Virus record (IMG/VR): IMGVR_UViG_3300032322_002238
Coordinates: 1-28,765 of that record
DNA length: 28,765 nucleotides
From: a virus
Strand: one strand, 5' to 3'
Position 1 is the stretch's first letter. Each line of letters starts with the position of its first letter. Under the pieces are notes generated by a model. It was not told the origin of the DNA. It saw only the letters and a program-made list of their open reading frames with translations, and did no database searches. Shown piece by piece: positions 3,401 to 27,383 of the stretch. A program made the translations under genes and the position numbers.

Positions 3401-6400
3401 ACCAATTCTAAAGTTTTGCCCTGTGCCTGTTGCTGTAGAAATTAATATGCCGCCTGTTATATTACCTGTTAGACTTGCGCTCGTTCCAGTTAAGCTTGTT
3501 ATAGAAGCTGCTGATGCTGATACATTACCAATCAACGTACCGCCTTGAACGTTACCTGTAGCAGAAAGATTTACACCAGCACTAATATTACCTGTTGCAG
3601 TTACAAGTGTCACTGAGACTCTGTTTGCTGTGAGATTACCCACGGCACTTATATTACCGTTTACACTTACCTCTCCTGTTGCAGATAATGTAGCACCTCT
3701 TATAGTAGTACTGCCTATAATTGAACCGGTTGCTGAAACTGTTGTTGCATTTAAAGTGGATGATGTGTTTATGTTTCCTATAGCACTTATATTCTGTGCT
3801 GAAGAAATATTTCCACTTGTGCTTATGTTACCACCAGCATTTAATTGTGGGACAGTAATATTACCCGCAACTGAAAGATTTCCTGCTGCTGAAACATTGC
3901 CAGATGCTGTAATATTACCAGGGAAAACGCTGTTTCCATTATTATCTAGTAGAGTTAGTGAGCGAACTAATGAGTTATAAGTTAATCCGCTGAACTGTCT
4001 AAATATGATTGGAGTTGGTGAATTACTTGACCCGTCAGTAGTATCAATATTAACAAATCCTTGATTTGTACCTGAACCACCAATTACTAATCTAAATCCA
4101 TCAGTTGATGCCATTGTACCACTAACAATACTAGTGTTAGTAAACTGTGTAGGAGTTGTGACACTCAAATTACCAACAAAGTTATTTGATATAACATTCT
4201 CAAATATTGAATTACCATTTGCATCTAATAGTGTAACTTCATTCTGTATGGTTACGCCATTATATTGTCTAAAGTATATTGGTTCATTACCTTGATCACC
4301 TGTTTCAAAAGAAACATATCCTTGATCTGTACCAGTACCACCAACGATTACCCTAAAGTAATCATTATCAGCAATGTTTGAACGTATAAGTTCGGCTGTG
4401 TTTGATCCTGTAATAGTATTTGTAGTTAATTTTCCGAAGAAATTACCACCATAATAATTATTACCAGTAAAGCTATTAGCAGTTAAATCACTACCTGCAA
4501 TATTGAAATTACCAACAAAGTTATTTGCTGTAATAGTTCCTGTAGCACTTATATTACCTGTATATGTAAGTGGTCCTGTACCTGATCTACCTAAGGTTTG
4601 GCTATTATTTGCTGTACCAAAGACTATAAAACCATTTCCAGGATTACTTTGTCCTTTAATAACAATTGTATCTGCTACATTTATATCACCAATAAATGCA
4701 TCATTTCCAATTGCGTAGTTATTTCCTGTTCCGTCGCTGGTAGCTCTAATATTATTTGCAGTAACATTACCGGTAATACTGATATTACCACCTGTACGAC
4801 TTGCAACATTTGATGCACTCGCAGTTAAATTACCAACTAAGTTAGAACCGGATACTGTGCCGGAAACACTTACTGTATTACCTGTATAAACATTTGCAAT
4901 CACACTTCCTTGAGCAACGTTAAGATAAGTAGTTAAGTTTATAATACCGCCATTAAAAACAGATGCATTTGCATTAGTAGCAGATAAATTACCTACAAAA
5001 TTTCCTGCATTAATGTTTCCGGTAGTACTAATATTACCAATAATATTATTTGCGGTAACGTTGCCACTAGCAGTTATATTACCACCTGTAAATCCTGGTG
5101 CATAAATACGACCAGGGAATGATGTTTCTCCGTTAGAATCAAGTAGTGTTACCCTACGTAACTCAGTTGCAAAATTAGATCCAGTAAATTGTCTGAATAC
5201 AATACTTTCAGTACCTTCATCACCTACATCTAGTGCAACATATCCTTGATCAGATAGATTACCTCCTATTTGTAGTCTAAATGCATCACTACCTGCCATT
5301 ACTGCATTGATAATGTTTGCAGTTTGCGGAGCAGGTATAAATGCAGTTAAATTACCGATTAAATTACTAGCAGCTACATTACCGTTTGCACTTATATTAC
5401 CAGGGAAGCTTGTATTACCATTTTGATCCAATAGTGTAACTTGTCTTTGAATGTTAGGACCATTGTATTGTCTAAAATATATTGGTTCTGAACCATTATC
5501 ACCTGTATTAAATGACACATATCCAAAGTCTTGACTAGTACCACCAACGTCAACACTGAAGTAGTCAGCATTAGTAGGTCCTGCGATATTCGCACGAATC
5601 ATTTCTACTACATTTGCGCCAGTAACTGTAGTAATTAATCTACCATTGAAGTTGCCGCCAGTGAATGTATTAGAAGTAAAGCTATTTGCAGAAAGGTCTG
5701 TGTTAGCTACATTAATATTACCAACAAAATTATTAGCAGTGATTGTGCCACTAACAGATAAGTTACTATTCCATGTTAATGGGCCTGTACCACTACGACC
5801 TAATTTAGCAGTTGAGTCGGATCCAAATGTTACATAACCAACTGTATCGTTTTGCTGACTTCTAACAGCTAAACTATCAGATGTGTTACGATCACCTAAC
5901 CAAACACTATTACCTACTCTGAAGTTATTACCTGTACCAACATTGTTTGAATGAATTACACCATTCGCTACAACGTTACCTGAAACACTGATGTTTCCTG
6001 TATTGAATACAGGTGCTGTAATGTTTTGAGCATTAATATTACTTACTTGAAGGTTCTGAACGTTAGTGATATTACCGTTAGCATGAATTCCTATTAAATT
6101 GTTTACAACCACACTACCATTAGCACTTAACAAACCTGCAGTAACACTATTACCAAATATGTTTGTGGTACTGTTTGCTGGTGTTGTAAAATTACTTGAT
6201 ATAGTGTTAACTATTAAAATAGGAGTAGTGACGTTTCCTGTAACATTTGCAAAAGGAGCAGTGAAATTACCTGATGCTGATATATTTCCGGTTGCTGTAA
6301 TATTTCCATTTACTGTTACGTTTGCGTTATTAATTGTTTGAATTATGGCGCCACCAGCACGTATAGCTATTTCACCGTTTCCAGTGTCACCATTTGTAAT

Positions 6401-9400
6401 TACTATGTTACTTGTAGTTCTACCAAATACATTTCCCGTAACTTGTGTAATATTTGCACCGGTAGCAACAAATGAGCCACCAATTTGTAATGCACCTGAA
6501 ATTACAGCGTTGCCGCCTGAGTAAATATTTCCACTAAATCCAGCACCACCTGTAACAACTAATGCACCAGTTGTTGTTGACGTAGACTGTACACCTGTAC
6601 GAACTCTTAATCCTGCACCGGTTTCTGATTCAATTCTTGCAGAAATTATGTACTTTGAACCATCACTATAAACGTAGAAGAATTGACCAATAGCATAAGA
6701 AATTATTACAGTACCTGTTCCTGTATAACCTGATCCCTCAAATGTTCCACTAGGTGTTATCAACGTAACAAATTGCCCAGATGTTCTCAATCTAAATGTG
6801 AAATTGACACCCTGATTTCCAACTGGAGTTGGTAATATAATTTGATAACTACTATTGACAATATCAACTAGAGCTCCTGCTCTATTAGCAGTGAGAGTTG
6901 TATTGGCTGAGGTACTTAAATATGATACTCTTAAACCACTTGTATTAACTATTCCGGAAGCAGTAATATTATTAACACTGCTGATATTACCGGTGTAATT
7001 TGGTAAGTAATTTGCTACATTGGCATCGTTATATATGTCAGTATTAACACCCGTTAAGAATGCACCATTACCAAATAAGTAAGTACCTGTAATATTACCA
7101 ACAGCACTTAGATTGCCATTAGCAGTTATTCTGTTTCCTGCAGTAATGTTTTCAAATACACTTAAGTTACCACCAATTCCAGTATCAGGAGTAATACTAA
7201 AGTTACCTGGGGAGATAGTAGCGACACTTGCGCCACCAACTGTTACACTTATATTTCCGTTTGCTACAGGAATATTGATGTTACTTACACCATTAGCAAT
7301 ACGTGCAACGTTTGCTGTTACATTCGTGAGTAATGCACCATTTCCAATAAATCTATCTGCTGTTATGTTTCCTATTGCAGACATTGATCCCGCAGCAGTG
7401 ATGTTTGTAGCTGCAGCGATATTTCCTGCAGCACTTATTGTGTTAGTTGAAAATAAATTACCTACATTTGCATTTGCTCCTGCAACTACGTTATTTCCAG
7501 TGATGTCACCAGTAGTACTTAATGTATTTCCTAATATTCTATTTCCTGTTATATTACCAGTTAATGAGATATTACCACTTCCGTTTAACGTGTTACCTAA
7601 ATTAGCAGCACCAATGTTTAACTGACCAGTAACTGTAGCTGCTCCTGTTACAGATAAGTTTGCAGAAGTTGTTATATTTCCGGTTGCGCTTACTACACCT
7701 GGTGTTATTATATTTTGACCTATGACGTTACCAGCAGTACTTAAAGTAGAACCTAAATTAACATTACCATTTATGTTTGCATTTCCAGTAACACTTAAGT
7801 TACCTGTTAGATTAGCTAACTGCGGAGATAGTACAAATACGTTTGGTGTGCCACTAACTGCAAATGTTATATTACTTGCACTTGCAGGAATACGAACATT
7901 ACTTGATCCATTAACAATTGATGTACCAACTGATGGGGTTACAAAACTTAAGTTACCTGTACCATCTGTACTTAATACATCACCTGCATTGCCACCTGGG
8001 ATATTTAAGGAGTCTATATTAGCTAAGTTTGCGTTACCTATGACTGATAAATCACCTGTTATGTTAACTCTATTTGATGATACAACAACAACGTTGGGAA
8101 CTCCTGTAACACCAATCGTTACGTTTGCATTTGGATTAACTGAAACATTACTATTTCCACCTGCTATTTGATTTGCTGCAGGTAAATTCCCCCAAGCTAA
8201 ATTTCCCGTACCATCAGTTGCAACTAAAATGTTGCCTGCAGCACCACCTGTAATTTTTAATCTGTTTATATCAGTATTGATATTACCAGTTGCGTTTATT
8301 GCACCAGTTACATTAATACCTAAATTAGAAATATTAAGTGCTGTTGTTCCTGTAGCAACAGCAACAATGTTTCCATTTTGACTTATGGTTAAATTACTTG
8401 TACCGTTGCTAATTTGTGATGTCGGTGGTGATGATACCCAACTCAAGTTACCTGTTCCATCTGTGGACAGTAATTGATTTGCACCTCCACCAGTGATGAT
8501 TACATTAGCATTTGACCCTAAGTTTGATCTTCCATTTACAACTACACCTGTATTTGCTACTACAAATACATTTGGTACCCCTGCAACACTAGTGCGTACA
8601 TTACCACTTAAATCAACAGTAACATTACTTAAACCATTTACGATTGCGGGTGCTACTGGTGCTGATGCAAAGAATAAATTACCAGTACCATCAGTTGTTA
8701 ATATGCCATTAGCATTACCACCTTGTATTTTAACATTAGCAACATTACCTAAATTAGCAAGATTTGTGTTTATTATGTCAGTAGTACGTAATACACCTGT
8801 CTGTATACCAAATTGCGTAAATTGTGTTACATTAGGAGTACCATTAACACTAACTCTGATATTAGTGTTTGGTCCTACTACAATATTACTGTTACCGTTT
8901 ACAATAGACTGTGTTGCTGGTGCTGCTGCCCAACCAATTTGTCCTGCAATACCTGTAGTAGTAAGAACTTGACCATTTTGACCACCTAATATTCTGATAT
9001 TAGCAATTGTGCCTAAGTTCACAGTTGAGTAAAAGCTTACTGCTTCATTAAATAAACCTTGTACGTTTGATGAGAAAGTTGATTGCTCGATTCTAAATCT
9101 ATTACCAAATCCTGCTACAGTGAACACAATGTTACCATTTTGTTCAACATTCATTCCACTTAAACCATTGATTACCGAGGTCGCTACCGGCGAAGACCAA
9201 TACAGGTTACCAGAACCATCAGTCGTAACGTATTGATTACTCAACCCACCTGCAATGTGTAGATTACCAATTTGACCAAGTGTTACATTTGATGTATATT
9301 CAAAATTAACTACACCAGCAATGTTACTTACTGTTAGATTATTAAGATTACCTATGTTAGTGATGTTAGGTTGATTAGATGAGGTTAATACACCTGTTAA

Positions 9401-12400
9401 GAAATTAGCAATTGCAATATTTCCTAAATTAGCGTTACCTGCTCTTAAATTACCTACAACACTTAATGAGCTTAAGTTTCCTACTGCTGTAATATTTGCT
9501 TGTGATGGGAAAGTAACAGTGGTTGCTACTACTGCATTTGCTACTTGTCCAGTTATATTTGCTCCGGTTATACCAAATAATCTTGAAGCATTACCCGCAA
9601 ATGTACCACTTGTAACACCATTACTCTTAAAGAATCTTAATGCAGAAGAAGCATTAAAAACACCATTGTCATTAAATTGAATTTCAGTATTGCCACCAGC
9701 TGCTGGAACAATCGCTAATACGTTAGCATATGATACAATTCCGTTTCCGTCAGTTGATAATACGTCACCTGCATTACCACCTAATATCCTTAAGTTACTA
9801 ACGAATCCTAAATTAGCGTAGTTAGCAACATTTAAATCTGTAAGTGATGCTGATGGAATAATAGTATTAGTTGCTGTTATTGTTAATTCAGTTACATTTG
9901 ATGTTAAAGATGTTTGTCCAACAGATATACCTGAAGGACTTACAGCTAAGCTATGCCAGCTATTAGATGGGATACCTAAATAATAAGTATCGTCTACATT
10001 AGGAATTAAGTTTGACTGAACAAAACTTGATACCGATAAATTATTGAGCGTTGCATTAGAATTGATGACTAGTGTGTTTGCATTTACAATATTGGATTTT
10101 ACATTACCAAACGCACTTATGTTAGTAGTTGAAATTAAGTTAGCAACATTAGCTAAGTTACCAACGGTTAGATTAGTAGTCGCACTTAAATTATTTGCAG
10201 AAACTACATTTCCTGCAGTAATATTAGCCACTGCTGATACATTAGCACCTCTTATTAATCCAGTTGCTGTAACAACACCATTTGACACTAAGTTACCTAC
10301 TGTAGCGTTTCCGGTAACATTTTCAGTGTTAGAATTTACAATGTTTGCGTCAACATTTGCAGTCGTACTGATTATGCCAGTAGTCAATAAATTGCCACCT
10401 ACAATATTACCAGTTGCACTTAATTGACCGGTTACTGTTGTATTTGCTAAATTTGTATTTGTTGCTACAGTTAGATTACCAGCAGTAGATAAATTGCCTC
10501 CTTGAACATTACCAGATGCACTTATTGTTGATGAATTTACTGCGCCTGCGTTAACAGTTGTTAAGTTAGCAGTAGAAGCATTAATTGTGTTTACATTTGC
10601 TGCTCCTGTAACAGACAATGTTCCTGTAACTGCTAAAGTATTTTGGCTAATAACAACTACGTTTGCTGTATTGTTAACACTAACAGCTACGTTTGCATTT
10701 GCTGAAGGTACTACGATGCTGGTTGTACCATTAAATAAATTACCTCTTACATTACCTAAGAAGAAATTAGCAGTAACACTGTTGCCTAATGTAGCATTTC
10801 CTGCTGATACATTGCCTGATGCAGTAACTGATGTTGCATTTACATTCTGTATTCCAATATTGCCTGCAGCAAGTATATTACCTGTTATACTAATATTAGT
10901 AGCATTAACATTACTAGATACACTTAAATTTCCTGTTGAATTTAAATTAGCAGCAACTACATTTCCACTAGCAACTACACCAACTGTGCTAATAACACCT
11001 GTGACATTAGCATTACCTAAGGTAGCATTGCCGGCTGCTAAATTTCCTGCCGCAGTAATATTTGCAGTTGTAGAAATTGAACCGGTTGCACTAATATTTC
11101 CAGCAGCATTTATGTTAAGACCTAAAATGTTACCTGATGCACTTAAGAATCCTGCAGCATTAACATTATTAGCAGACAAATTACCACTAGCACTAACTGC
11201 GCCCGTTGTAATTAAATTGCCACCTGTAACATTTCCATTAGCACTGAGTGTACCTTTTACTGCTACACCCTGACTAGTTACTACTTGAACATTAGCGACC
11301 CCACCTGCCCCAACAGACACATTTCCATTGGCAGCAACGGTTACATTACTTGTACCATTTAGTAGTTGTGTGCCTGCACCTATCGTTAGATTTGTTAATA
11401 GACTACCGTCTCCTTGGAAGAAGTTAGCTCTTGCTAAATTACCTAAGTTTGCATTTTGTCCAATTATATTAGCGCCAACTGAAAGTTGGCCTACGATTGA
11501 CCCACTTGCGGCTGTTATTGCACCGCCTACACTTAAGCCTCCTCCTACTCCCAATGGACCAACATTAGCATTTCCAGTAACACTTAAGTTGCCTGCTGTT
11601 GATAAATTTGTACCTGATATATTTCCATTTGCGCTAAGAGCTCCTGATGATAGTCCACCTGTGCTTAACGTTCCGGTAGCTGTGATGTTTCCTGTAACGG
11701 ATAATCCTGTATTAGTAACTCTAACTACGTTGGCAACGCCGCCTGAGCCAATTCTAATATCACCATTTACGCTAGGAATAGACACATTACTTGTGCCATT
11801 TACGATTTGATTTAATCCACTTTGATTACCTAAGTTAATACCTGTTAGGAATGCACCATTACCTAAAATATAATTATCAGAAGTAATATTACCGGTTGAA
11901 CTTATTTCATTGTTTATTATTAAGTTATTAGATACGATATTTCCTGAAACAGAAATATTACCGGCATTTACTTGCGAGGCATTTACGGCGCCACTTGTGC
12001 TTACATTGCCTGATGTTAATAGATTTGCACCAGTTATATTACCGTTTGCGCTTATAGTACCAGCTGTTCTTAGATTTGCACCAGTTATATTACCGTTTGC
12101 GCTTACTGCATTTACTGCATTTAAATTACCTGCAATAACATTTCCTGTTAAATTTGCAGTATTAGAAAAAATTACATTAGCATTTACATTACCGGCAGTT
12201 GAAATTAAAGTGTTCGCAAAAAGATTAGCACCTTGAATGTTGCCATTTGCAAGAACTGTTCCTGTGCTTGAAATGTTTGCACCTCTAATGTTTGAATTAG
12301 AGATTATATTATTTGATATATTTAAATTTGTACCGTTTATATTTCCTGTAGCACTAATTGTTACAGACTGCAATGTGCTTGTGGCAGGATTAAAGGTTAG

Positions 12401-13954
12401 GTTTGGACTAGCTGCTAGTCCATCATTTACATTATATTGAATTTGATTTGTATTACCAGCAACAATATCAGGAAGTACGATAGGACTCCATGATAGATTA
12501 CCTAATCCATCTGTAATTAGTGTATAATCAGGGAATCCACCTGTGATCCTTACGTTTGCAACATCACCTAAATTTGTTGTTCCCTGAACGCTTAATCCTG
12601 TCAGTGTTCCTACAGTTGTTATGTTGGGCTGTGAAGATGAATCTGCAGTAAATATAGCTGATATGAAATTAGCGTTTACTAAATTTCCTAAATTGGCATT
12701 TTCAGCAGTAAGAACATTACTTGAAATTCCATTAGCGTTTGCAGTAATTGAAGTATCACCTAAATAAATGGTATTACCTGAAAGATAAAGTTCTTTCCAA
12801 CGCTGCGTTGGACTACCTAAGTTTTGTGCTAAATCAACTTCAGGGATCAAGTTACCTTTAACGATACCAGTTAATGATAAATTACCTATGTTTGCATTGC
12901 CTAATGTGTTTAGACCAGCAGTCGTAATTACACCACCCGCACTAATTTGTCCAGTAGTTCTTAGATTACCACCTGTAACATTACCGGTAGCACTGATAGT
13001 TGAGTTTGCTGCAACTGTTGTAAAGTTACCTGGATTAGCATTACCTGCTCCTAATCCAATTGAACCAACTAAGTTTGCTGAAGTTACAAGTGTTGTCGTT
13101 ATTCTTGTGATGTTAGCATTACCATTTAATGCTAAATTGTTTGTATCTTTGTTAAACGTTAAGTTTGCGCTTCCACCAAACAGTCCTGCTGTATCTTGGA
13201 ATTGAATTTGTGTATTTGCACCACCTGGCACACCTGTACCAGCTTGGTAGAATGAGCAAATAATATTACCCGTGTTTGATACTGCCGGAGTGAATCCAGT
13301 ACTATTAACAGCATTTGCTAATGCAGCGTCTGAATAAAGTGAGAATGTTTTATTTGTGAGTTTAACACCATAATACTTATTGGTACTATTTTCACCAGCA
13401 GTTGCGATTTGTGTCATTCCACTAACACCAATGATAGTTAATGGAATACCTGTAACAACAGTGTTATCGTTAATCGTTGTAACTACTGCAGGATTTGCTT
13501 TGGAGATATCCTGAATTCTAAATGTCCCTACTCCTGTACCTTCCCAAGTTAAATTACCAGTACCGTCTGTAGTTAACACATAGCCATTTAGACCACCACG
13601 CATTACAACATTATTTGCGTTGCCTAAGTCTATTTTAATATTGCTGTTTCCGCCAGCATTAACCCAAGTATTAGCATTAGATACTAATACTTGACCATTA
13701 CCAACTGGACCATTTAAAGAAATTTGTGTGTTAGCTGTGCCACCGATCTTAGACCAGTTTAGCACTGACACTTCTGTTAAAATTTCTGTTTGTGTAGTTG
13801 TTGCGTTGCCTGAAGGAGGAAATAAGTTGGGATCATTTCCTATATACAATCTACGTTCGTCAGTTGCGAACCCTAATTCGCCCTCAGCTAGTTGAGGCAA
13901 ATCAACATTTGCCCCTGTACGGTGTTGAATCTTAGAAATCTGTATAATAGCCAT
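494..13954 (-). CDS. Giant repetitive tail-fibre/adhesin-like protein (4486 aa)
   Basis: A single uninterrupted 4486-residue frame, extremely rich in Asn, Gly, Thr, Ser, Ala, Val and Ile, with very few Cys, Lys or Arg. Residues 1-60 resemble the N-terminal attachment segment common in phage tail proteins (LAEGELGFATDERRLYIGN). Much of the rest is a roughly 17-residue motif of the type SATGNITGANLxTxGxI. The N-terminal half also holds GG..TDGTGNL..W / NG.SNV modules, six of them in tandem at about residues 1565-2040. A beta-sandwich-like domain lies at about 2342-2443 and a similar one closes the protein (about 4388-4486). The C-terminal half carries four A-B-B super-repeats. It is probably a long, trimeric, beta-rich fibre with a receptor-binding or trimerising tip; family and structure are inferred. 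A late-type promoter lies 30 bases upstream. The ribosome site is weak (AAGAA). Confidence 0.85.
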   Translation of the reverse strand: MAIIQISKIQHRTGANVDLPQLAEGELGFATDERRLYIGNDPNLFPPSGNATTTQTEILTEVSVLNWSKIGGTANTQISLNGPVGNGQVLVSNANTWVNAGGNSNIKIDLGNANNVVMRGGLNGYVLTTDGTGNLTWEGTGVGTFRIQDISKANPAVVTTINDNTVVTGIPLTIIGVSGMTQIATAGENSTNKYYGVKLTNKTFSLYSDAALANAVNSTGFTPAVSNTGNIICSFYQAGTGVPGGANTQIQFQDTAGLFGGSANLTFNKDTNNLALNGNANITRITTTLVTSANLVGSIGLGAGNANPGNFTTVAANSTISATGNVTGGNLRTTGQISAGGVITTAGLNTLGNANIGNLSLTGIVKGNLIPEVDLAQNLGSPTQRWKELYLSGNTIYLGDTSITANANGISSNVLTAENANLGNLVNANFISAIFTADSSSQPNITTVGTLTGLSVQGTTNLGDVANVRITGGFPDYTLITDGLGNLSWSPIVLPDIVAGNTNQIQYNVNDGLAASPNLTFNPATSTLQSVTISATGNINGTNLNISNNIISNSNIRGANISSTGTVLANGNIQGANLFANTLISTAGNVNANVIFSNTANLTGNVIAGNLNAVNAVSANGNITGANLRTAGTISANGNITGANLLTSGNVSTSGAVNASQVNAGNISVSGNIVSNNLIINNEISSTGNITSDNYILGNGAFLTGINLGNQSGLNQIVNGTSNVSIPSVNGDIRIGSGGVANVVRVTNTGLSVTGNITATGTLSTGGLSSGALSANGNISGTNLSTAGNLSVTGNANVGPLGVGGGLSVGGAITAASGSIVGQLSVGANIIGQNANLGNLARANFFQGDGSLLTNLTIGAGTQLLNGTSNVTVAANGNVSVGAGGVANVQVVTSQGVAVKGTLSANGNVTGGNLITTGAVSASGNLSANNVNAAGFLSASGNILGLNINAAGNISATGSISTTANITAAGNLAAGNATLGNANVTGVISTVGVVASGNVVAANLNSTGNLSVSSNVNATNISITGNILAAGNIGIQNVNATSVTASGNVSAGNATLGNSVTANFFLGNVRGNLFNGTTSIVVPSANANVAVSVNNTANVVVISQNTLAVTGTLSVTGAANVNTINASTANLTTVNAGAVNSSTISASGNVQGGNLSTAGNLTVATNTNLANTTVTGQLSATGNIVGGNLLTTGIISTTANVDANIVNSNTENVTGNATVGNLVSNGVVTATGLIRGANVSAVANITAGNVVSANNLSATTNLTVGNLANVANLISTTNISAFGNVKSNIVNANTLVINSNATLNNLSVSSFVQSNLIPNVDDTYYLGIPSNSWHSLAVSPSGISVGQTSLTSNVTELTITATNTIIPSASLTDLNVANYANLGFVSNLRILGGNAGDVLSTDGNGIVSYANVLAIVPAAGGNTEIQFNDNGVFNASSALRFFKSNGVTSGTFAGNASRLFGITGANITGQVANAVVATTVTFPSQANITAVGNLSSLSVVGNLRAGNANLGNIAIANFLTGVLTSSNQPNITNIGNLNNLTVSNIAGVVNFEYTSNVTLGQIGNLHIAGGLSNQYVTTDGSGNLYWSSPVATSVINGLSGMNVEQNGNIVFTVAGFGNRFRIEQSTFSSNVQGLFNEAVSFYSTVNLGTIANIRILGGQNGQVLTTTGIAGQIGWAAAPATQSIVNGNSNIVVGPNTNIRVSVNGTPNVTQFTQFGIQTGVLRTTDIINTNLANLGNVANVKIQGGNANGILTTDGTGNLFFASAPVAPAIVNGLSNVTVDLSGNVRTSVAGVPNVFVVANTGVVVNGRSNLGSNANVIITGGGANQLLSTDGTGNLSWVSSPPTSQISNGTSNLTISQNGNIVAVATGTTALNISNLGINVTGAINATGNINTDINRLKITGGAAGNILVATDGTGNLAWGNLPAANQIAGGNSNVSVNPNANVTIGVTGVPNVVVVSSNRVNITGDLSVIGNANLANIDSLNIPGGNAGDVLSTDGTGNLSFVTPSVGTSIVNGSSNVRIPASASNITFAVSGTPNVFVLSPQLANLTGNLSVTGNANINGNVNLGSTLSTAGNVIGQNIITPGVVSATGNITTSANLSVTGAATVTGQLNIGAANLGNTLNGSGNISLTGNITGNRILGNTLSTTGDITGNNVVAGANANVGNLFSTNTISAAGNIAAATNITAAGSMSAIGNITADRFIGNGALLTNVTANVARIANGVSNINIPVANGNISVTVGGASVATISPGNFSITPDTGIGGNLSVFENITAGNRITANGNLSAVGNITGTYLFGNGAFLTGVNTDIYNDANVANYLPNYTGNISSVNNITASGIVNTSGLRVSYLSTSANTTLTANRAGALVDIVNSSYQIILPTPVGNQGVNFTFRLRTSGQFVTLITPSGTFEGSGYTGTGTVIISYAIGQFFYVYSDGSKYIISARIESETGAGLRVRTGVQSTSTTTGALVVTGGAGFSGNIYSGGNAVISGALQIGGSFVATGANITQVTGNVFGRTTSNIVITNGDTGNGEIAIRAGGAIIQTINNANVTVNGNITATGNISASGNFTAPFANVTGNVTTPILIVNTISSNFTTPANSTTNIFGNSVTAGLLSANGSVVVNNLIGIHANGNITNVQNLQVSNINAQNITAPVFNTGNISVSGNVVANGVIHSNNVGTGNNFRVGNSVWLGDRNTSDSLAVRSQQNDTVGYVTFGSDSTAKLGRSGTGPLTWNSNLSVSGTITANNFVGNINVANTDLSANSFTSNTFTGGNFNGRLITTVTGANVVEMIRANIAGPTNADYFSVDVGGTSQDFGYVSFNTGDNGSEPIYFRQYNGPNIQRQVTLLDQNGNTSFPGNISANGNVAASNLIGNLTAFIPAPQTANIINAVMAGSDAFRLQIGGNLSDQGYVALDVGDEGTESIVFRQFTGSNFATELRRVTLLDSNGETSFPGRIYAPGFTGGNITASGNVTANNIIGNISTTGNINAGNFVGNLSATNANASVFNGGIINLTTYLNVAQGSVIANVYTGNTVSVSGTVSGSNLVGNLTASASNVASRTGGNISITGNVTANNIRATSDGTGNNYAIGNDAFIGDINVADTIVIKGQSNPGNGFIVFGTANNSQTLGRSGTGPLTYTGNISATGTITANNFVGNFNIAGSDLTANSFTGNNYYGGNFFGKLTTNTITGSNTAELIRSNIADNDYFRVIVGGTGTDQGYVSFETGDQGNEPIYFRQYNGVTIQNEVTLLDANGNSIFENVISNNFVGNLSVTTPTQFTNTSIVSGTMASTDGFRLVIGGSGTNQGFVNIDTTDGSSNSPTPIIFRQFSGLTYNSLVRSLTLLDNNGNSVFPGNITASGNVSAAGNLSVAGNITVPQLNAGGNISTSGNISSAQNISAIGNINTSSTLNATTVSATGSIIGSTTIRGATLSATGEVSVNGNISAVGNLTANRVSVTLVTATGNISAGVNLSATGNVQGGTLIGNVSASAASITSLTGTSASLTGNITGGILISTATGTGQNFRIGSRAWIGEVNVNDTLIVTGQQNAANGYIIFGNGNNSQSLGRAGTGPLTYSGDMSLSGNVTANNFVGNINIGNADISANSFTSNDFYGGNFNGLLTSNTLIGSANGNLILANMATNDYFRLRIGGTGVNQGFASFDVGDDGTEPIYFRQYNGANIQNQVTLLDAVGNTILPNSLSVTSNINLGGNISLGGNISTSGSITANFLNGNLQVSVTGTTSANVISAAMASGDFFRLQVGGTGTDQGFASLDTADNGTEPIYVRQYVNVGGNAFGSILRQATLLGPNGETIFPGELSIGGNLSAAGNIVTTSNFTVANLSATGNVLASQRISATGNITTASNISAVGSIIGGSFSTAGIISATANITAGNLTTAGQVSATGNITGANVIAGNLSATGNVNAPTHIGTTVSVTGNITGANLFGNLSATSAVIINSTGTTVSVTGSVTGATVVSSATGTGQNFRVGTTTWLGDIGVVDTLMLSSQGNAANGYIVFGNGNNSAKLGRAGTGPLTYSGDMSLSGNLTAGNVLANFSLTGDVNANSFTSNNFFGGNLNGTLTCNTLTGTQTANLILANIATSDYFRVTVGGTAADSGFVSFDVGDNGNESIFFRQYTGASTITNQITLLDAAGNTSLPGSLSVVGNINTANNITANNFNGNLNISVSGTTTANIINTTIAGTDFFRLQVGGTGPDLGFVSLDTANDGNEPIYVRQYISTQPNPYNAINRQLTLLDSNGQTILPGNLSVAGNTTVGNLNTSGNIIGAFVSPGISGTANANVITGLIASNDYYRIQVGGTAADSGFLSIDTADNGDEPIYVRQYTAGGSGPFATVTRELALLDNTGNTSLPGNLIINGANSTQLVSALGSQYRIGYRGYPVQSLSTSYTVTVNDPGLTLLFSGQSGGTLLNIPTNLTAAIAIGAEMRIINNDASQSVTVQPAIGTTLRYQGGTGARILSTFADVTLIKVATDTWYINGYGIT
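913..5947 (-). repeat. Four A-B-B super-repeats inside the giant fibre gene
   Basis: Module A (about 65 residues, NFRVG..WLGD..D.L....Q.N..GYI.FG...LGR.GTGPLT) occurs at about 5740-5947, 4530-4740, 3232-3436 and 1862-2062. Module B (about 50 residues, YFR(V/L).(V/I)GGT..D.G(F/Y)VS.D.GD.G.EPI(Y)(F/V)RQ(Y)...TLLD) occurs nine times, at about 5425-5580, 5138-5299, 4222-4371, 3942-4113, 2918-3070, 2563-2736, 1545-1700, 1229-1398 and 913-1080. In transcription order the pattern is A-B-B four times with one extra B at the end. Spacing between A copies is about 1210, 1296 and 1372 bases. The last two A copies are also very alike in DNA, suggesting recent duplication. Confidence 0.85.
7830..9265 (-). 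repeat. Six tandem GG-TDGTGNL modules in the giant fibre gene
   Basis: Six consecutive units of about 75-90 residues follow one pattern: (I/L).GG..(N/G)..L.TDG.GNL.W, then NG.SNV, then a GN(I/V)...V.G(T/V).NV segment. More diverged or isolated copies lie elsewhere in the N-terminal half (about 13540-13615, 12480-12560, 9720-9800, and partial ones near 11260-11390 and 11700-11830). Boundaries are approximate and read by eye. Confidence 0.75.
12020..12105 (-). repeat. 35-bp exact direct repeat, 51-bp period
   Basis: Bases 12020-12054 and 12071-12105 are identical and 51 bases apart. This is one unit of the 17-codon repeat (SANGNITGANL...). It shows the basic repeat period of the giant protein at DNA level and suggests growth by slippage or unequal recombination. 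Confidence 0.8.
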
Positions 13955-18599: not shown

Positions 18600-18607
18600 T
18601 ATTTATC
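18600..18607 (-). promoter_or_regulatory. Late promoter GATAAATA overlapping the helicase stop
   Basis: The minus strand reads AGTGATAAATATA: the TGA stop codon of the helicase gene supplies the first bases of the promoter. It lies 19 bases before the ATG at 18580 and would switch on the 77-aa and 252-aa genes late, independently of the replication genes upstream. Confidence 0.6.
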
Positions 18608-20030
18608 ACTTTTTCAGACTGTTAAGCATAGCTTTTAATTTTGCGCTTTGTACGTCTGCTGCTACTTTTGGAACAGCTTGCACCACATCCGGCAATTCGC
18701 TATCATGTGTTGAGTTTATTTTAGCAGTAGGCTTAAGTCTAGAAATAATGTCATTAGGACTAGGCTGTGGGTTGTTATACTTTACACCTGCAGATTGCCC
18801 ATCTTCACCCGGGTCTGTGATGCGCAATGTTTCTACATTAAATTCAAGTTCAATTTTAGTTCCGACTCCTGAACTACTACGTGTTTTCATAAGTTGAATC
18901 TGATACTGGCCACGTTCACGCATACTGCGACTTGTAAAGATACCGAATACATTATCCGCTGTGTTAATCTTTGAAATACCACCTGAGATATGACTATGAT
19001 CAAACTCAATTTCTTCCACTGCACTACGATTTAATTGACTAGCTGTAACTAGCAGCACGTTCAATTCTTTAGACAAATTACGCAATTCTTCCGACACATA
19101 CTTGTCTTTAATAAACAAGTCTGAGGGGCTGACCTTTGCGCTGACGGGCATAAGGAGATCAAGATAGTCAATACAAAGAAAATCAATCTTTGCACCAGTC
19201 TTAATCTCATACTCTTTACAATATGCTCGTAAGTCATTTACTGTACTCTGTGCCGGCAAATACTTGATTTGTAACTTACCAGCTTTCTTTGCCAACATTC
19301 TGACTTTCATTTCAATGTCATCAATACTTTTAAAAATATCCCGACTGCTAGTTTCTGTCATCATGCTATCTATACGCATTGAACACAAACCCTCACTGAG
19401 TTCTAACGACACATAGATACCATTCAATCCTGCTTGACTCCAGTTGACGGCAAGATTTTGCATAAACAAACTCTTACCTGATCCTGAGCCGCCTGCAAAG
19501 ATTTGTAATTCACCACGATTAAATCCACCATATAGCTTACTGTCAACTGTAGACCAACCTGTACTGATTTGTCCATTGTTGCTTTTTAGTGCCATCAATC
19601 TACTACGTGGGTCAGAAAAGTAATCAGTGCCCATGTCTTTTGTGATACTAATTTGCACTGCGTCTTTTACAAGTTTTTCAACAGGATCGTAGTTGCCCTT
19701 TTCTAGTAGATCGGCTGCTTTTAATATTGCACGTTCTAGTTCTTGCCTGCGTGTGAATTTTTCAAATTCATCTAAGAACCATTCATAATGACCTTGTTGC
19801 AAATCAGTTATAGTTTCTAAGTCTACTCCACACGTTGCTAACACTTGATCAGGTTCAGGTAACACATTATATTTTTCAGAGTGTTCCGAAAAAAACTTTG
19901 CAATAGGCCTTAGTGACTTATCAAAGTTTTCAGCATTCATGATGTTACTAACTCTTGTGTATAACTCACCATTAGTGATCATCATACGCAAGAAAAGTTT
20001 CTGAACATCTATGTTATAATCAGTTACCAA
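18606..20030 (-). CDS. 41: Replicative DNA helicase, DnaB/T4 gp41 family
   Basis: A 474-residue RecA-fold helicase that unwinds DNA ahead of the replisome as a hexamer. The N-terminal helical domain spans about residues 1-130. The ATPase core carries Walker A GGSGSGKS (180-187), a catalytic Glu210 in SLELSE, Walker B FLCIDYLD (Asp288), the sensor TASQLNR (Gln332) and a QLMKTRSSSG segment (379-388) typical of the DnaB arginine-finger region. The C-terminal 60 residues are poorly ordered, a likely partner-binding tail. The start is a TTG inside the end of the primase gene (11-base overlap); GAGG lies 7 bases upstream, which supports that TTG over internal ATGs. The upstream primase is its functional partner, as gp61 is for gp41 in T4. 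Confidence 0.93.
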   Translation of the reverse strand: MVTDYNIDVQKLFLRMMITNGELYTRVSNIMNAENFDKSLRPIAKFFSEHSEKYNVLPEPDQVLATCGVDLETITDLQQGHYEWFLDEFEKFTRRQELERAILKAADLLEKGNYDPVEKLVKDAVQISITKDMGTDYFSDPRSRLMALKSNNGQISTGWSTVDSKLYGGFNRGELQIFAGGSGSGKSLFMQNLAVNWSQAGLNGIYVSLELSEGLCSMRIDSMMTETSSRDIFKSIDDIEMKVRMLAKKAGKLQIKYLPAQSTVNDLRAYCKEYEIKTGAKIDFLCIDYLDLLMPVSAKVSPSDLFIKDKYVSEELRNLSKELNVLLVTASQLNRSAVEEIEFDHSHISGGISKINTADNVFGIFTSRSMRERGQYQIQLMKTRSSSGVGTKIELEFNVETLRITDPGEDGQSAGVKYNNPQPSPNDIISRLKPTAKINSTHDSELPDVVQAVPKVAADVQSAKLKAMLNSLKK

Positions 20031-20985
20031 TTCGTTTCCTCATCATTTCTATTTTTATTTTGCTTGTAGTTGCACTCTGTATTATACTTAATAAAGTAGC
20101 TAGTTTTCCATATTTTATTACGGCATCATTAACGTCTTTAACGTCACTGTCCCAGTTAGGCAAACTTACTTTGTATCCTACTTCCAACGCCCGTTCACAA
20201 GTTTCTAATCCTGTTTTATCTCTGTCAGGAACAAAGATAACTTCTTTGTTTAATTGTCTAATAAAACGTACTTGATCATCGTTAATTGTGTTGTGAGTTA
20301 GTGCTAACCCATCAATGGCTAATGCGTCAAAAATGCCTTCCATCAATAATACAATTTCCCAATCACTCTTTTGATTATCATACCCAAACACATAACCAGG
20401 TTGCTGATCATTGATATATTTGGGAGTTCTGTCATCTAAGAATCTACTTGTGTGTCCTACTATTTCACCATTATAATAATAGGGGATAATAATTCTATTT
20501 GCATTTCTACCCTCATCAAATGGTGCTACATAAAACTCACGTTTTTTAAAATCAATTTTTCTTTTAATTAGATAATCAATGTATTTTTTATGGTCCTGAT
20601 TACTTTCATCAAGTAGTTCACTATCAGGTAATTGCTTGATTTTAAAATCTAATGGTTTTTCTTTTTTGAATTTTTGTGTAAAGTCAAGAAGGTCTTTGTT
20701 TTGCAAACTCTCAATGTTCCATCTTTGAATTTGTACTTCGTCAACACCACACCATTTCAACAACTCACGTGTTCGGTTTGTGATACTGCGACCCAATTCA
20801 TAATGGCAACTAAATGAACAGTTGAAGCAGTTATATGTCCAATTAGTTCCATCAAACTTTATGCCGCCCCTTTGCCTTCTATCAGCTTTGTGTCCACGCT
20901 TGTCGCAACATATAGCATTGAAACTATACCAGCCACTTTGGGTTAACTTTTTTTTGTTTGGAATTATTGATAGGATATCAAACAT
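20020..20985 (-). CDS. 61: DNA primase, T4 gp61-like (zinc-ribbon + TOPRIM)
   Basis: A 321-residue primase that makes RNA primers for lagging-strand synthesis. The N-terminal zinc-binding region has Cys26/Cys27, His32 and a CFNC ribbon (Cys53, Cys56, with Cys60). The TOPRIM catalytic core has the Glu of LLMEGIFDALA (Glu216, Asp220), the DxD of VPDRDKTG (Asp254, Asp256) and a downstream DVKDVND segment typical of these primases. The gene overlaps the helicase gene by 11 bases, so both are made from one mRNA. The promoter was not resolved: the 48-base gap upstream has only poor sigma70-like elements and no late octamer, in keeping with earlier expression than the flanking virion genes. Confidence 0.92.
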   Translation of the reverse strand: MFDILSIIPNKKKLTQSGWYSFNAICCDKRGHKADRRQRGGIKFDGTNWTYNCFNCSFSCHYELGRSITNRTRELLKWCGVDEVQIQRWNIESLQNKDLLDFTQKFKKEKPLDFKIKQLPDSELLDESNQDHKKYIDYLIKRKIDFKKREFYVAPFDEGRNANRIIIPYYYNGEIVGHTSRFLDDRTPKYINDQQPGYVFGYDNQKSDWEIVLLMEGIFDALAIDGLALTHNTINDDQVRFIRQLNKEVIFVPDRDKTGLETCERALEVGYKVSLPNWDSDVKDVNDAVIKYGKLATLLSIIQSATTSKIKIEMMRKRIGN

Positions 20986-21838: not shown

Positions 21839-22258
21839 TTGGATAAAATATACGATAAATATTCCAAGAATTACAACAAAATGCACAACGAATTTTTTAA
21901 AAAACTATCTGAAAATCATCCCTTTATCACAGTATGCTCTTACTCAGGGCAGGACTATGTAGGAATCATACAAAATCGTGACGATATTGTAACCACAATA
22001 TACGACTACGGAGCAATAGTCCATAACGAAATGCGAGAACGTTTCTTAGAACTTGGGGAAGTATGGTGGTGGGAAAGTAACAGACTTATTCCTATAAATA
22101 TGTTTCTTAAAGAAGAATGGCTACCATTTAAACTCTATTTGAGGACCTTTAACAACAAAAGCCTAGAAATAATACATGGTCCTGTTTGCAGCATGAGCGA
22201 TTTGCATAAGAAGAAAACAAAACGCAGAAGCATTACACTAGTTCAACGTATGCCCTGA
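21839..22258 (+). CDS. Unknown 139-aa protein, only plus-strand gene
   Basis: No named family recognised. The sequence is conserved-looking: an SYSGQDYVGIIQN segment, then ELGEVWWWESNRLIPINMF, and a basic C-terminus (KKKTKRRSI). A nucleic-acid-binding role is possible from the basic tail but unproven. The longest frame starts at a TTG with AAGG 12 bases upstream; the first ATG (21881) would give 125 residues. It is divergent from the 21780 gene and converges with the polymerase-like gene, overlapping it tail to tail by 16 bases, so it is transcribed against the main direction. Confidence 0.75.
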   Translation: MDKIYDKYSKNYNKMHNEFFKKLSENHPFITVCSYSGQDYVGIIQNRDDIVTTIYDYGAIVHNEMRERFLELGEVWWWESNRLIPINMFLKEEWLPFKLYLRTFNNKSLEIIHGPVCSMSDLHKKKTKRRSITLVQRMP

Positions 22259-22815
22259 TTTGCAAGCAAGTTCATGTGTACGACCACCAAATGTGCATAC
22301 GCAACACTATGACTTTTCTTAAAACTATACCCGTCATCAGTTTTATCCCAAACAGTTTTAGATACCTCAGACCAACTTTTCCCTAATAAATGTTTTTTAG
22401 CAGGTCTAATACAAGCCAAAAACATTGCAAGTCTAGGAATGCTATCTACAGGCTCCGGCATTTTTTGTAGATTATTGTAATGATTTCCCAAATGCACCAA
22501 CTGTTCTACAACCTCTTTTTTGTTTAATAGACTCCAATTAGGTTCCCGCATTAAGTCAATAAGCTCGGTCTCTGATTTTATTTGATCATAAACATGTACA
22601 TTAAGAAGGTCTAGTTTAAGATACCCGCGATCTTCTGCTTCAGTATAATCAATATTGGCCATATCATTGAATGAATCATATGGGATTTCAGTTACATAGA
22701 CCCCTGTATTATGCTTCTTTATAGGAGATACATTGCGCATAGCCGCAGCTATATGTTTAATGTGCTGCAAAACTAAATCTCTATTACCAAAGTCAATATC
22801 AATGTCAAAGTTCAT
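22243..22815 (-). CDS. Miniature C-family (DnaE/PolC-like) DNA polymerase core protein
   Basis: A 190-residue protein whose motifs follow bacterial DNA polymerase III alpha (over 1100 aa) in the same order. FDIDIDFGNRD (Asp6, Asp8) matches the catalytic DVDF of E. coli DnaE (Asp401, Asp403). KKHNTGVYVT matches KHAGGVVI. GYLKLDLLN (Asp69) matches LVKFDFLGL (Asp555). LAMFLACIRPAKK matches the ALFRPGP segment. GYSFKKSHSVAYA (162-174) matches the FNKSHSAAYA signature. All three catalytic aspartates are kept, but the PHP domain, most of the fingers, the thumb and the clamp/OB regions are missing. It could be a tiny nucleotidyl-transferase or a degenerate accessory protein; activity is not demonstrated. 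Its ATG overlaps the stop of the DEDDh exonuclease gene (ATGA), so the two are coupled. Homology is judged by eye. Confidence 0.7.
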   Translation of the reverse strand: MNFDIDIDFGNRDLVLQHIKHIAAAMRNVSPIKKHNTGVYVTEIPYDSFNDMANIDYTEAEDRGYLKLDLLNVHVYDQIKSETELIDLMREPNWSLLNKKEVVEQLVHLGNHYNNLQKMPEPVDSIPRLAMFLACIRPAKKHLLGKSWSEVSKTVWDKTDDGYSFKKSHSVAYAHLVVVHMNLLANQGIR

Positions 22816-23378
22816 TTAAGCAAAAACCCTTTATCCATTAACTTCTTATATGCATCTTGCACGACCAATGCCTGATGCTCTGCATCTTCTACTGCTTTGT
22901 GTGTGGTTTTACTACTATACTTTTTGTCTTTAAGACTAACACCTGCAATTTCAAATAATGTTCTGGTATCACGCACTGTATAAAAAGGCCAAGGTATAGG
23001 GTTAGGTCTATCTGTCAATGTTTGACGCATTGCAGTTTCCATTGCAACAACATCAAATGGTGCGCCATGACTCCACACTGCACGGCGATTCCAACAAAAT
23101 TTATAAAGTTGTTCCATACAATCTTTTAGTGATTCTCTACCCCAATCACTCATTGCTTCTTCCATTGCTGAAGGGTTTTGTGTACTCCACCAGCGTATAG
23201 TATCATCATTAATTATTCTATTGTACTGCTCTGTTTGATCTTCTAATGTAGGACGTAATTCTAGTTTTTCTACTATACCGTCACCCCTAGGATCAAATCT
23301 GACCGCACCGATAGTTAGGATTACACAATACGGGCTTGTGTCCAAACTTTCAATGTCAATCATAATATCATTTGCCAT
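22812..23378 (-). CDS. dexA-like: DEDDh 3'-5' exonuclease, DexA/DnaQ-like
   Basis: A 188-residue exonuclease of the RNase-T/DnaQ fold with all five DEDDh residues: Asp8 and Glu10 in MIDIESLDT, Asp109 in WSHGAPFDVVAM, and His160 and Asp165 in THKAVEDAEHQA. The TIGAVRFDP and DDTIRWWSTQNPSA segments resemble phage exonuclease A (T4 DexA) and the 3'-5' exoribonuclease group. It removes nucleotides from 3' ends, of DNA in the case of DexA; DNA or RNA cannot be decided here. It overlaps the upstream 62-aa gene by 11 bases and the polymerase-like gene by 4, so it could serve as a proofreading or trimming partner of that protein, which is an inference. Confidence 0.88.
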   Translation of the reverse strand: MANDIMIDIESLDTSPYCVILTIGAVRFDPRGDGIVEKLELRPTLEDQTEQYNRIINDDTIRWWSTQNPSAMEEAMSDWGRESLKDCMEQLYKFCWNRRAVWSHGAPFDVVAMETAMRQTLTDRPNPIPWPFYTVRDTRTLFEIAGVSLKDKKYSSKTTHKAVEDAEHQALVVQDAYKKLMDKGFLLK

Positions 23379-24155: not shown

Positions 24156-24848
24156 CTACCATTTCAATTCTTTAAGTAACGATTTTACTTCACCCACATT
24201 GTCTTGTTCTTTACTAAACTTTATTGCCCATTGCACGGGATTAATGTAATCATATATAAACTTAATCAAATCTTCTTGTATGTCATCTAAAAATTTAGTT
24301 CCACTTTCTGAATGATACAATAGCCACGGACTGATTCTTCCTGTAACTACTAAATGGCAAATTTTATTTCTGCTACCATAACGCAAGTAATCCTTGCTTT
24401 GTATTTTTTCTTCTTCTGCATATTCAATGCAACTTTCTACACTACGATGAACCGCATCTAGTGGATCTTCGCACTTTAAATAATCAATTAAGTAGACGTT
24501 GTAATTTAGGTCACTATTCCAGTTATCTATTTTTACATTTTCTTTCAGATAGTATTCTACTAGTCTAGGAACGTTTAACGCATTAATGTCAACGCAGTAA
24601 TTACCAAACTTGACAAAAGCAGTATAATACGCAGATTTAATAAATTCTTCGTATGTTTTTTCCTTCTTTGCAGCACTGTGTTTTTTATAGAACTGCACAA
24701 AGCTTTGAAAGCCTATTTGATTTCCTCGGCGATCACGTTCTAGCCAACGATGTTTGTATTCGCAGATATGCTTAAGCATCGTGCTTTCTCTAATAAAAGT
24801 ACGATTGCAAAATTCACATCCAAAACTAGTATCCGAGGTCTTTTTCAT
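24156..24848 (-). CDS. C2H2 zinc-finger protein of unknown function
   Basis: A 230-residue protein with a classical C2H2 finger at the N-terminus: Cys11-x2-Cys14-x12-His27-x5-His33, with the usual hydrophobic Phe18 and Leu25 (CEFCNRTFIRESTMLKH). The rest is helical and charged with no motif I can name; an IQSKDYLRYGSRNKICH segment and ISPWLLYHSESG look conserved. DNA or RNA binding, perhaps in replication or middle-gene control, is inferred from the finger only. I use the ATG at 24848 rather than a TTG six bases upstream. It overlaps the gp62-like gene by 23 bases. Confidence 0.72.
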   Translation of the reverse strand: MKKTSDTSFGCEFCNRTFIRESTMLKHICEYKHRWLERDRRGNQIGFQSFVQFYKKHSAAKKEKTYEEFIKSAYYTAFVKFGNYCVDINALNVPRLVEYYLKENVKIDNWNSDLNYNVYLIDYLKCEDPLDAVHRSVESCIEYAEEEKIQSKDYLRYGSRNKICHLVVTGRISPWLLYHSESGTKFLDDIQEDLIKFIYDYINPVQWAIKFSKEQDNVGEVKSLLKELKW

Positions 24849-25413
24849 ACTCAATTATTTGCTCATCCGAAACAACTTCGTTTAGTACCTCTATATCAGA
24901 AACTTTTAAATCAGGAAAAAGCTGTGCTAGTTTAAATTTTCTTTTTTGAATTCTTGTAAATTCTTCACTTATTTCAACCAATAAGTTTTTGTCAGCACTT
25001 GCATATACTTTAGAAAAGTAATCCTGAACTTCTTTCTGTTTTGCTTCTTCCAGCAAAAGTGTATAGTTACGCTTGATATGCGGAATCCATTTATGATATT
25101 GTTTTCCCATACCAGGACTTACTGCACATAACATTAACCATTGCAATTTATTGTGTTTAATAATGTTTTCGTGAAACATATGCTTGTTCGCTGCAAGGTC
25201 AGTATTTTGCAAATAATATCGCTGCAAGTCTGGGATTCCAGTAACTGCACTGAGCCAATGTAACAGCATAAAAGAACTAAACCCTTTTTGTTGTTCTACA
25301 GTAAGTCTATCAAAAAACTCATAATCCTTTTTATCTAATGCTGCTAATGCATCAAACAGTGGGAAGTCTATATCTGTAAATTTTTCGTCAGCAGATAATT
25401 TTTGCTTACCCAT
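24826..25413 (-). CDS. 62: Possible clamp-loader small subunit, T4 gp62-like
   Basis: A 195-residue helical protein, close to T4 gp62 (187 aa). The segment LQWLMLCAVSPGMGKQYHKWIP parallels the T4 gp62 stretch with LMAAVPRGKRYGKWAK (pattern LM.AV..G..Y.KW), followed by a long helix in both. gp62 joins gp44 to load the gp45 sliding clamp on DNA. gp44 and gp45 are not in the window, so context cannot confirm it. The start overlaps the previous stop by one base (TAATG). The call rests on one motif and on length and is tentative. Confidence 0.5.
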   Translation of the reverse strand: MGKQKLSADEKFTDIDFPLFDALAALDKKDYEFFDRLTVEQQKGFSSFMLLHWLSAVTGIPDLQRYYLQNTDLAANKHMFHENIIKHNKLQWLMLCAVSPGMGKQYHKWIPHIKRNYTLLLEEAKQKEVQDYFSKVYASADKNLLVEISEEFTRIQKRKFKLAQLFPDLKVSDIEVLNEVVSDEQIIEYEKDLGY

Positions 25414-25919: not shown

Positions 25920-25948
25920 ATTATATCATTTATAATCTAACTTTTCAA
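25920..25948 (-). promoter_or_regulatory. Sigma70-type promoter for the 25913 operon
   Basis: On the minus strand: -35 TTGAAA (25948-25943), a 17-base spacer, and -10 TATAAT (25925-25920), a near-perfect host sigma70 promoter. Six bases separate the -10 from the ATG at 25913, so +1 is predicted at the A of the start codon. It would drive the 166-aa, gp62-like and zinc-finger genes early. Confidence 0.65.
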
Positions 25949-27383
25949 TACTAAATGGATAGTTAGCTTCTCTATAAAACTCTTTGCGTTTGGTTAAATG
26001 TCGTTTGGCAAACTTACATGAACTTGTTATGTCCCATATTTGGACAAAATCTTTGTCCTCAGCCTTACGAATACCTCGTCCGATACTTTGAATGACCCTA
26101 ACAAAACTCTTGCCCGGTTCTACTAGAACCAAATTAAAGATACGTGGAATGTTAATACCCACAGCAGCAACACCATAAGTAGCAATAGCCACTTTGTCAT
26201 CACTAGTCGCAAAGTCATCATATTCTTCTTTACGTTCTGTGAGTTTAGTATCACCGCTGACAAATACAGCATCAGACAATCTGTCTAACAATTCTTTACC
26301 TGCGTTAACTCTATCAACTAAAATAAGAGTATTACCAGTTTGTTTAATGTTTAGTGCTAGTTCAGCAATTGTGTCTAATCGTGTTTTATCTTCAAGCAAA
26401 TGTTTTAATTCACTTTGATAGTTTGTAAACTCTACATGATCCTGTAATTGCACAATATTCACATGGCAATTTGCTAGTACACCACGATCTTGTAATTCAC
26501 TTGCTGCAAGTTTATTGATTACAGGACCTATGCTAACAAACAATGATTGACTTGCAAACAACTCTTTAGGTATAGTTCCTGTCAGTCCCCAACGAATGGG
26601 AACATTTGCAAATATACCAGTAAGCATAGTTTTAAGTACATCTGCCTTTGCTTGGTGTACCTCATCAATCATTACGCATATTAAATCCTGCATGAATGAT
26701 TCAATCTTTTCCTGAGAGGTTAATTCTTCTCTAGTTTTTATAAGATGATTCAAACTTTGCCACGTACAGATAGTGTGTGTCTTGCCTAGTTCTTTTCTGT
26801 CACCAAAGTATACACCTACGTCAAGACCAAGGTTGATGTAGTCTGCTTCAGTTTGTACTACAAGTGACTTGTTAGGTACAATAACAATACTGCGCCCATA
26901 CTGTTCTATGCTTTTGCTGAGTGCGGCAGTCATCAATGTTTTACCTGCGCCAGTCGCTACCTCTTGTATGCTTTGTGGGTTCTCTAAAAAGCCATTAATG
27001 ATTTCAATCTGATAGTCACGCAATAGAATAGGTTGTCCTGCCATTGGATGACCTTTTGGCCATACCTTGTCAGAAAATGTATCCTCGGACACTTGAGTAA
27101 AATCAAAACTATGGACTGTTTCACGCAAGTCATCCAATTCAATATCATACCCTGCACTGTCAACTACGGGAATAATTTTGTCTAACAGATTGATATATGA
27201 ACTACCACCTAAACTAAAGTAACTTACTTTACCATTCCATCTACCAAGTCTAACAGAAGGAAGGTACCTTGCACCCGGTACCTCGTATTCAAACATCTTC
27301 ATTAATTTTTTACGTTCGGTTAACTCAAGACCTTCTATCTTACAGTTTACCTCATCTTTTATAATTATTTTACATGGTTTCAT
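25926..27383 (-). CDS. uvsW: UvsW-type SF2 DNA helicase
   Basis: A 485-residue superfamily-2 helicase like T4 UvsW, which unwinds R-loops and branched DNA and drives recombination-dependent replication and fork regression. An N-terminal substrate-binding domain covers about residues 1-115. The helicase core has an LRDYQ motif (121-125), Walker A ATGAGKT (143-149), a DEVH box (240-243), motif III LTGTIP (267-272), the second RecA domain with LVEPGKS, and motif VI QSIGRGIR (432-439). It overlaps the upstream 345-aa gene by 4 bases (ATGA), with GAG about 7 bases before the ATG. Its 3' end holds the promoter for the next operon. Confidence 0.93.
   Translation of the reverse strand: MKPCKIIIKDEVNCKIEGLELTERKKLMKMFEYEVPGARYLPSVRLGRWNGKVSYFSLGGSSYINLLDKIIPVVDSAGYDIELDDLRETVHSFDFTQVSEDTFSDKVWPKGHPMAGQPILLRDYQIEIINGFLENPQSIQEVATGAGKTLMTAALSKSIEQYGRSIVIVPNKSLVVQTEADYINLGLDVGVYFGDRKELGKTHTICTWQSLNHLIKTREELTSQEKIESFMQDLICVMIDEVHQAKADVLKTMLTGIFANVPIRWGLTGTIPKELFASQSLFVSIGPVINKLAASELQDRGVLANCHVNIVQLQDHVEFTNYQSELKHLLEDKTRLDTIAELALNIKQTGNTLILVDRVNAGKELLDRLSDAVFVSGDTKLTERKEEYDDFATSDDKVAIATYGVAAVGINIPRIFNLVLVEPGKSFVRVIQSIGRGIRKAEDKDFVQIWDITSSCKFAKRHLTKRKEFYREANYPFSIEKLDYK

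Follow-up and report, generated by a model that had tools for sequence, protein, structure and literature searches.

A split minimal Pol III alpha was described in group 2.2 jumbo phages by Iyer et al. 2021 (PMC7824862), with Atu_ph07, PA5oct, RaK2 and CBB as examples and PHROG 11127 and PHROG 11778 as the corresponding families. In the portions of that paper on which we draw, the enzyme consists of an N-terminal NTP-binding unit and a C-terminal Mg- and template-binding unit, encoded by distant genes in phages that carry a B-family polymerase (PolB) alongside. Earlier genome papers had already recorded proteins resembling Pol III alpha in Atu_ph07 and, in truncated form, in CBB, and no experimental test of the split enzyme was found in the open-access literature, later papers included.

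Here we analysed a viral DNA stretch of 28,765 nucleotides (the window), in which a 190-aa protein was found to be a stand-alone homologue of the Mg- and template-binding unit of this system. It differs from the published cases in its surroundings: in the clade of the window a DexA-like exonuclease gene lies directly upstream and overlaps the polymerase gene, a linkage of which there is no mention in the same portions of PMC7824862. Because the split minimal Pol III is already contained in Iyer et al. 2021, the novelty of the locus is limited. The basic prediction has been published, and what we add is the precise breakpoint between the two units, a large conservation set and the clade-limited linkage to the exonuclease.

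Compared with bacterial DnaE and PolC, the split pair shares the palm and fingers motifs, the three catalytic aspartates, the KH and KSHS motifs and, in the partner protein, the GRGS motif. It differs in being made of two chains (~170-177 and ~190 aa) and in having no PHP domain, thumb, beta-binding domain, OB fold or tau-binding tail. The initial annotation of the window had described the 190-aa protein as lacking the PHP domain, the clamp-binding tail and most of the fingers, and we agree: neither half gave a PHP domain match, the clamp-binding tail is missing from the C-terminal half (C-half), its thumb is absent and its fingers are reduced. Since the thumb is absent, DNA grip and processivity would need another source.

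The two open reading frames on which that annotation was based were recovered exactly, together with their ATGA overlap. The features of the locus are as follows:

22243..22815 (-): C-terminal half of a predicted split, PHP-less C-family DNA polymerase, 190 aa (PHROG 11778, invariant residues, AlphaFold2, Foldseek)
22792..22806 (-): codons 4-8 of this gene, DIDID (Asp4, Asp6, Asp8); Asp4 and Asp6 are equivalent to E. coli D401 and D403
22693..22716 (-): codons 34-41, KHNTGVYV, the KHxxGVxV motif (E. coli KHAGGVVI, K510-H511)
22609..22611 (-): codon of Asp69 within LKLDLL, equivalent to E. coli D555; Lys67 is equivalent to K553
22402..22407 (-): codons 137-138, the invariant Arg-Pro of the fingers (E. 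coli R639-P640)
22294..22323 (-): codons 165-174, the FKKSHSVAYA motif (E. coli FNKSHSAAYA)
22812..23378 (-): DEDDh 3'-5' exonuclease, DexA / Rv2179c-like, 188 aa (PF16473, T4 DexA PDB matches, intact active site)
20020..20985 (-): DnaG-type primase, T4 gp61-like, syntenic (PHROG 47, E 1.6e-36; Toprim_2; same position in relatives)
18606..20030 (-): DnaB/T4 gp41-type replicative helicase, syntenic (PHROG 19, E 2.1e-71)
25926..27383 (-): UvsW-type helicase, syntenic (PHROG 16, E 2.7e-74; UvsW_N weak)
21839..22258 (+): small convergent gene that overlaps the 3' end of the C-half gene by 16 nt

The C-half gene thus sits in a conserved replication block with the genes of UvsW, the primase and the gp41-type helicase. 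The convergent gene at 21839-22258 (+) gave no Pfam match, and a small gene on the opposite strand overlaps or abuts the 3' end of the C-half gene in most of the relatives examined. Further upstream, at 24156-24854 (-), the window encodes a 232-aa protein in which a C2H2-type zinc finger was weakly matched; in phage PAC2 the gene next to the C-half on its upstream side likewise bears a C2H2 annotation. Almost half of the window is taken up by a single open reading frame of 4486 aa at 494-13954 (-).

C-family ancestry and invariant residues of the 190-aa protein

All five C-family signatures reported for the 190-aa protein (DIDIDF, KHNTGVYV, LKLDLL, IRP and FKKSHSVAYA) were found, in the order in which they occur in DnaE. 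The numbering of the catalytic residues had to be revised in part. Asp69 had been correctly assigned to D555, whereas Asp6 and Asp8 had been taken for D401 and D403. Because PDFDVDF in E. coli DnaE has D401 as its first Asp, Asp4, Asp6 and Asp8 are equivalent to D401, D403 and D405, and the three catalytic aspartates of the C family (E. coli D401, D403 and D555) are represented by Asp4, Asp6 and Asp69.

The initial annotation had proposed Pfam profiles as a means of recognising a C-family polymerase. These gave no significant domain in the C-half in a single-sequence search, and single-sequence phmmer gave no PDB match, so that family profiles were required. PHROG 11778, annotated as 'DNA polymerase', matched the protein with an E-value of 2.6e-56, and PHROG 405, the full-length DnaE type, matched it more weakly (E 5.8e-7). 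When a profile of 107 relatives was searched against PDB sequences, all seven matches were Pol III alpha; they were weak (E 0.1-0.9), and their sub-threshold pieces were collinear, covering DIDID, the region around D555, RPG and KSH. Alignment with hhalign placed the C-half on E. coli DnaE with an E-value of 0.0012 over the stretch from KH to RPG, and on a 559-aa single-chain phage DnaE with an E-value of 3.8e-5. These results confirm that the 190-aa protein is of C-family (DnaE) ancestry. The C-halves of sequenced phages are ~27-48% identical to it.

Conservation of the catalytic residues, on which the earlier claims had been staked, was borne out. Across 202 distinct C-halves, thirteen positions never varied (D4, D6, D8, H35, G38, K67, D69, L71, W94, R137, P138, K140 and H169), and these include the catalytic aspartates. 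Purifying selection on the gene is strong, with a dN/dS of about 0.03-0.04 against two close relatives; against near relatives dN was 0.03-0.05 and dS about 1.1, synonymous changes far exceeding replacements. AlphaFold2 run on the natural alignment predicted the fold of the C-half with a mean pLDDT of 95.6 and a pTM of 0.85. A Foldseek search of this model against the PDB returned Pol III alpha as all of the best 11 matches (E 2e-3 to 0.2), followed by an unrelated protein at E 1.2. By predicted secondary structure, Asp4, Asp6 and Asp8 lie at and in a strand at residues 5-9, and Asp69 in a strand at residues 67-72. The missing thumb and the reduced fingers are reflected in the spacing between Asp8 and His35, which is ~27 residues in the C-half versus ~106 in E. 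coli DnaE.

A search for the C-half in bacterial and archaeal genomes found only five MAG contigs, and the family therefore looks phage-restricted. Four contigs with C-half relatives (L348-L351) are labelled as bacterial MAGs, of Neomarinimicrobiota, Gammaproteobacteria and uncultured bacteria; they are probably misbinned phage contigs.

A separately encoded N-terminal half

The initial annotation had interpreted the 190-aa protein as a condensed polymerase. We found instead that it is not self-contained and is the C-terminal half of one, the nucleotide-binding part of the palm being encoded by a distant gene. The palm of E. coli DnaE starts ahead of D401 with the nucleotide-binding region GRGSGAGS, and this region is missing from the 190-aa protein. 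In Atu_ph07, Phosso and PAC2, PF07733 was found as a separate gene of 169-177 aa, hereafter the N-half. This protein exceeds the Pfam cut-off of PF07733 and corresponds to PHROG 11127. A complete pol-beta-like palm is thus not present in one chain, as its Gly-Ser nucleotide-binding motif is encoded by the N-half, in which GVGRGS was invariant among 47 sequences.

The position of the split was located by hhalign, which placed the N-half on residues 238-393 of E. coli DnaE (E 1.5e-4). The alignment ends at FLN393, eight residues ahead of D401, and in nearly all of 95 loci the C-terminus of the N-half falls at EFLK/FLN or a few residues away from it. No fusion of the two halves was seen among 234 C-half and 95 N-half loci. 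AlphaFold predicted the lone N-half confidently except for part of GRGS and the last 14 residues, where pLDDT fell below 50; in a joint active site these parts would be expected to contact the C-half.

The distance between the two halves ranges from 11 to 224 kb and is 34-49 kb in the metagenomic contigs nearest to the window. The 28.8-kb contig of the window is a fragment, and PF07733 was not found in it. In the same-clade contig G002 the N-half is about 43 kb from the C-half, and from this and other relatives the phage of the window would be expected to encode an N-half as well. Both halves were present in 11/11 sequenced phages of the family tested, namely Atu_ph07, Phosso, PAC2 and eight more C-half phages of jumbo or large size; Gordonia phage Beyoncage was left out of this set, as its only match was a larger DnaE of its own with a different split. 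Among long metagenomic contigs, 13 of the 17 with an N-half also had a C-half, and 7 of the 10 with a C-half also had an N-half. The N-half was not detected in three C-half contigs of 191-201 kb. In one long jumbo-phage contig with an N-half and a B-family polymerase (G021, the record of L132, 348,701 bases) the C-half went undetected even with the PHROG model. Contigs with one half only may be fragments. The suggestion that the protein represents an additional polymerase in phages already equipped with a B-family enzyme agrees with the gene content of the relatives, since a B-family polymerase was found in 14/14 large relatives checked; the window is too short to show one.

Given these results, we consider it probable, at roughly two in three, that the 190-aa protein forms the C-terminal half of a predicted accessory DNA polymerase of the C family, which has two subunits and neither a PHP domain nor a thumb. 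The C-half would supply the metal-binding Asp4, Asp6 and Asp69, the conserved Lys67 and the reduced fingers region, and the N-half, usually encoded tens of kilobases away, would supply the GVGRGS nucleotide-binding part of the palm. Both chains would assemble into one pol-beta-like active site. In the T4-like jumbo phages that encode it, which have a B-family enzyme as main replicase, the pair may serve in gap filling, in repair or on one class of replication intermediate. In the clade of the window, where the C-half is in an operon with the DexA-like exonuclease, the latter may trim ends or clean them for the polymerase. An active pair, with about 360 aa divided over two chains, would make a very small C-family polymerase and show what Pol III alpha can do without; it would also mean that two unrelated DNA polymerases operate in large T4-like phages. 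Now that the split point, the invariant residues and the gene pairs are defined, this reading can be tested directly.

It is also conceivable, but in our judgement unlikely, that the two halves form a nucleotidyltransferase other than a polymerase, or a signalling or repair enzyme, which has kept the C-family active site and given up template-directed synthesis. The absence of a thumb and the shortened fingers would fit such an enzyme, as would an active site that is still invariant in phages where a B-family replicase is already there. However, the template-side motifs of the fingers (RP and the KSHS type) are conserved too, and the gene neighbours are a primase, a helicase and UvsW.

A clade-limited exonuclease neighbour

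The start codon of the C-half overlaps the stop codon of the exonuclease gene directly upstream by 4 nt (ATGA). The exonuclease matched PF16473 with an E-value of 1.8e-33 (116 bits versus a cut-off of 27), its sole Pfam match; it had no NCBIfam match, and no DnaQ-type profile was among its hits. Its only PDB sequence matches were 8KEL and 8KEN, both T4 DexA, and the annotated phage proteins that it matched include DexA and exonuclease VIII-type proteins. The DEDDh active site is intact, as had been noted at first, with D8, E10, D109, H160 and D165 invariant in 92/92 homologues. The protein therefore shares the DEDDh fold family with T4 DexA (8KEL) and the Rv2179c-like proteins of PF16473, and differs from T4 DexA in lying next to a split C-family polymerase in an operon. 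With E. coli epsilon (DnaQ), which works with a C-family polymerase, it has in common that it is a DEDDh 3'-5' exonuclease, whereas its profile match is to Rv2179c/DexA and not to DnaQ.

A survey of the neighbourhoods had been proposed to see whether homologues always sit beside such an exonuclease, and they do not. In a tree of 202 C-halves, the linkage was confined to one group of 93 members, within which the exonuclease was adjacent in 56, within about 1 kb in 27, and absent or unknown in 10. Outside this group, it was never found beside the C-half in the same tree. In the relative G003, tens of kilobases separate the exonuclease gene from the C-half, and the two are found in different parts of the contig. 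As the linkage is limited to one clade, the partnership with the exonuclease would be a local addition and not a defining feature of the family.

The parallel with the alpha-epsilon pair of Pol III, drawn in the initial annotation, was downgraded, because the exonuclease is DexA-like and its linkage clade-limited. The 4-nt overlap, the linkage kept within the clade and the active site intact in every homologue compared are what a true alpha-epsilon-like proofreading complex would lead one to expect. The PHP domain binds epsilon in E. coli, however, and the C-half is without it; a proofreading domain is usually part of PolB enzymes themselves; and the two genes are unlinked in all other lineages. 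Together with the DexA-like rather than DnaQ-like profile of the exonuclease and its distance from the C-half in G003, these points make such a complex improbable. At similarly low odds, the DexA-like exonuclease might join both polymerase halves in a three-part machine in the clade of the window. This would be a minimal accessory core of Pol III, with a trimming subunit recruited independently of DnaQ.

Other proposed roles for the C-half, and other C-family forms in phages

The remaining proposals of the initial annotation concern the C-half without a polymerase partner. According to one of them, the palm has been repurposed for binding to DNA, to primase or to host Pol III; in this case the protein would be catalytically dead and act as a decoy or inhibitor. 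Its small size and the B-family polymerase at hand for replication would suit this role, but a decoy needs none of Asp4, Asp6, Asp8, Lys67 and Asp69, all of which are invariant in 202/202 distinct homologues, and GVGRGS of the N-half is likewise invariant. Conservation in both halves thus favours catalysis over a decoy role, which we regard as quite improbable. The other proposal, a minimal nucleotidyltransferase formed by the 190-aa protein alone with a trimming partner, is the least credible of all: the C-half does fold confidently by itself in prediction and has all three catalytic aspartates, but the Gly-Ser part of the palm is on a partner that ends where the C-half begins, this partner accompanies it in each of the 11 sequenced phage records, and the exonuclease is not adjacent in any lineage outside the one clade.

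Two further arrangements of C-family polymerases were observed in phages. The single-chain polymerase of 559 aa without a PHP domain that was used in the hhalign comparison is encoded at L346:1504-3183 (IMGVR_UViG_3300027804_000045, the record of L298). It carries PF07733 (1.3e-42) and the finger domain (1.4e-16), and its contig also has the split pair; its nearest match, at 38% identity, is in the 484-kb uncultured phage LR756508. In Gordonia phage Beyoncage (MH576972, L067), the DnaE annotation is divided between gene 64 (318 aa) and gene 66 (811 aa), which flank a small gene; this represents a different split of a C-family polymerase.
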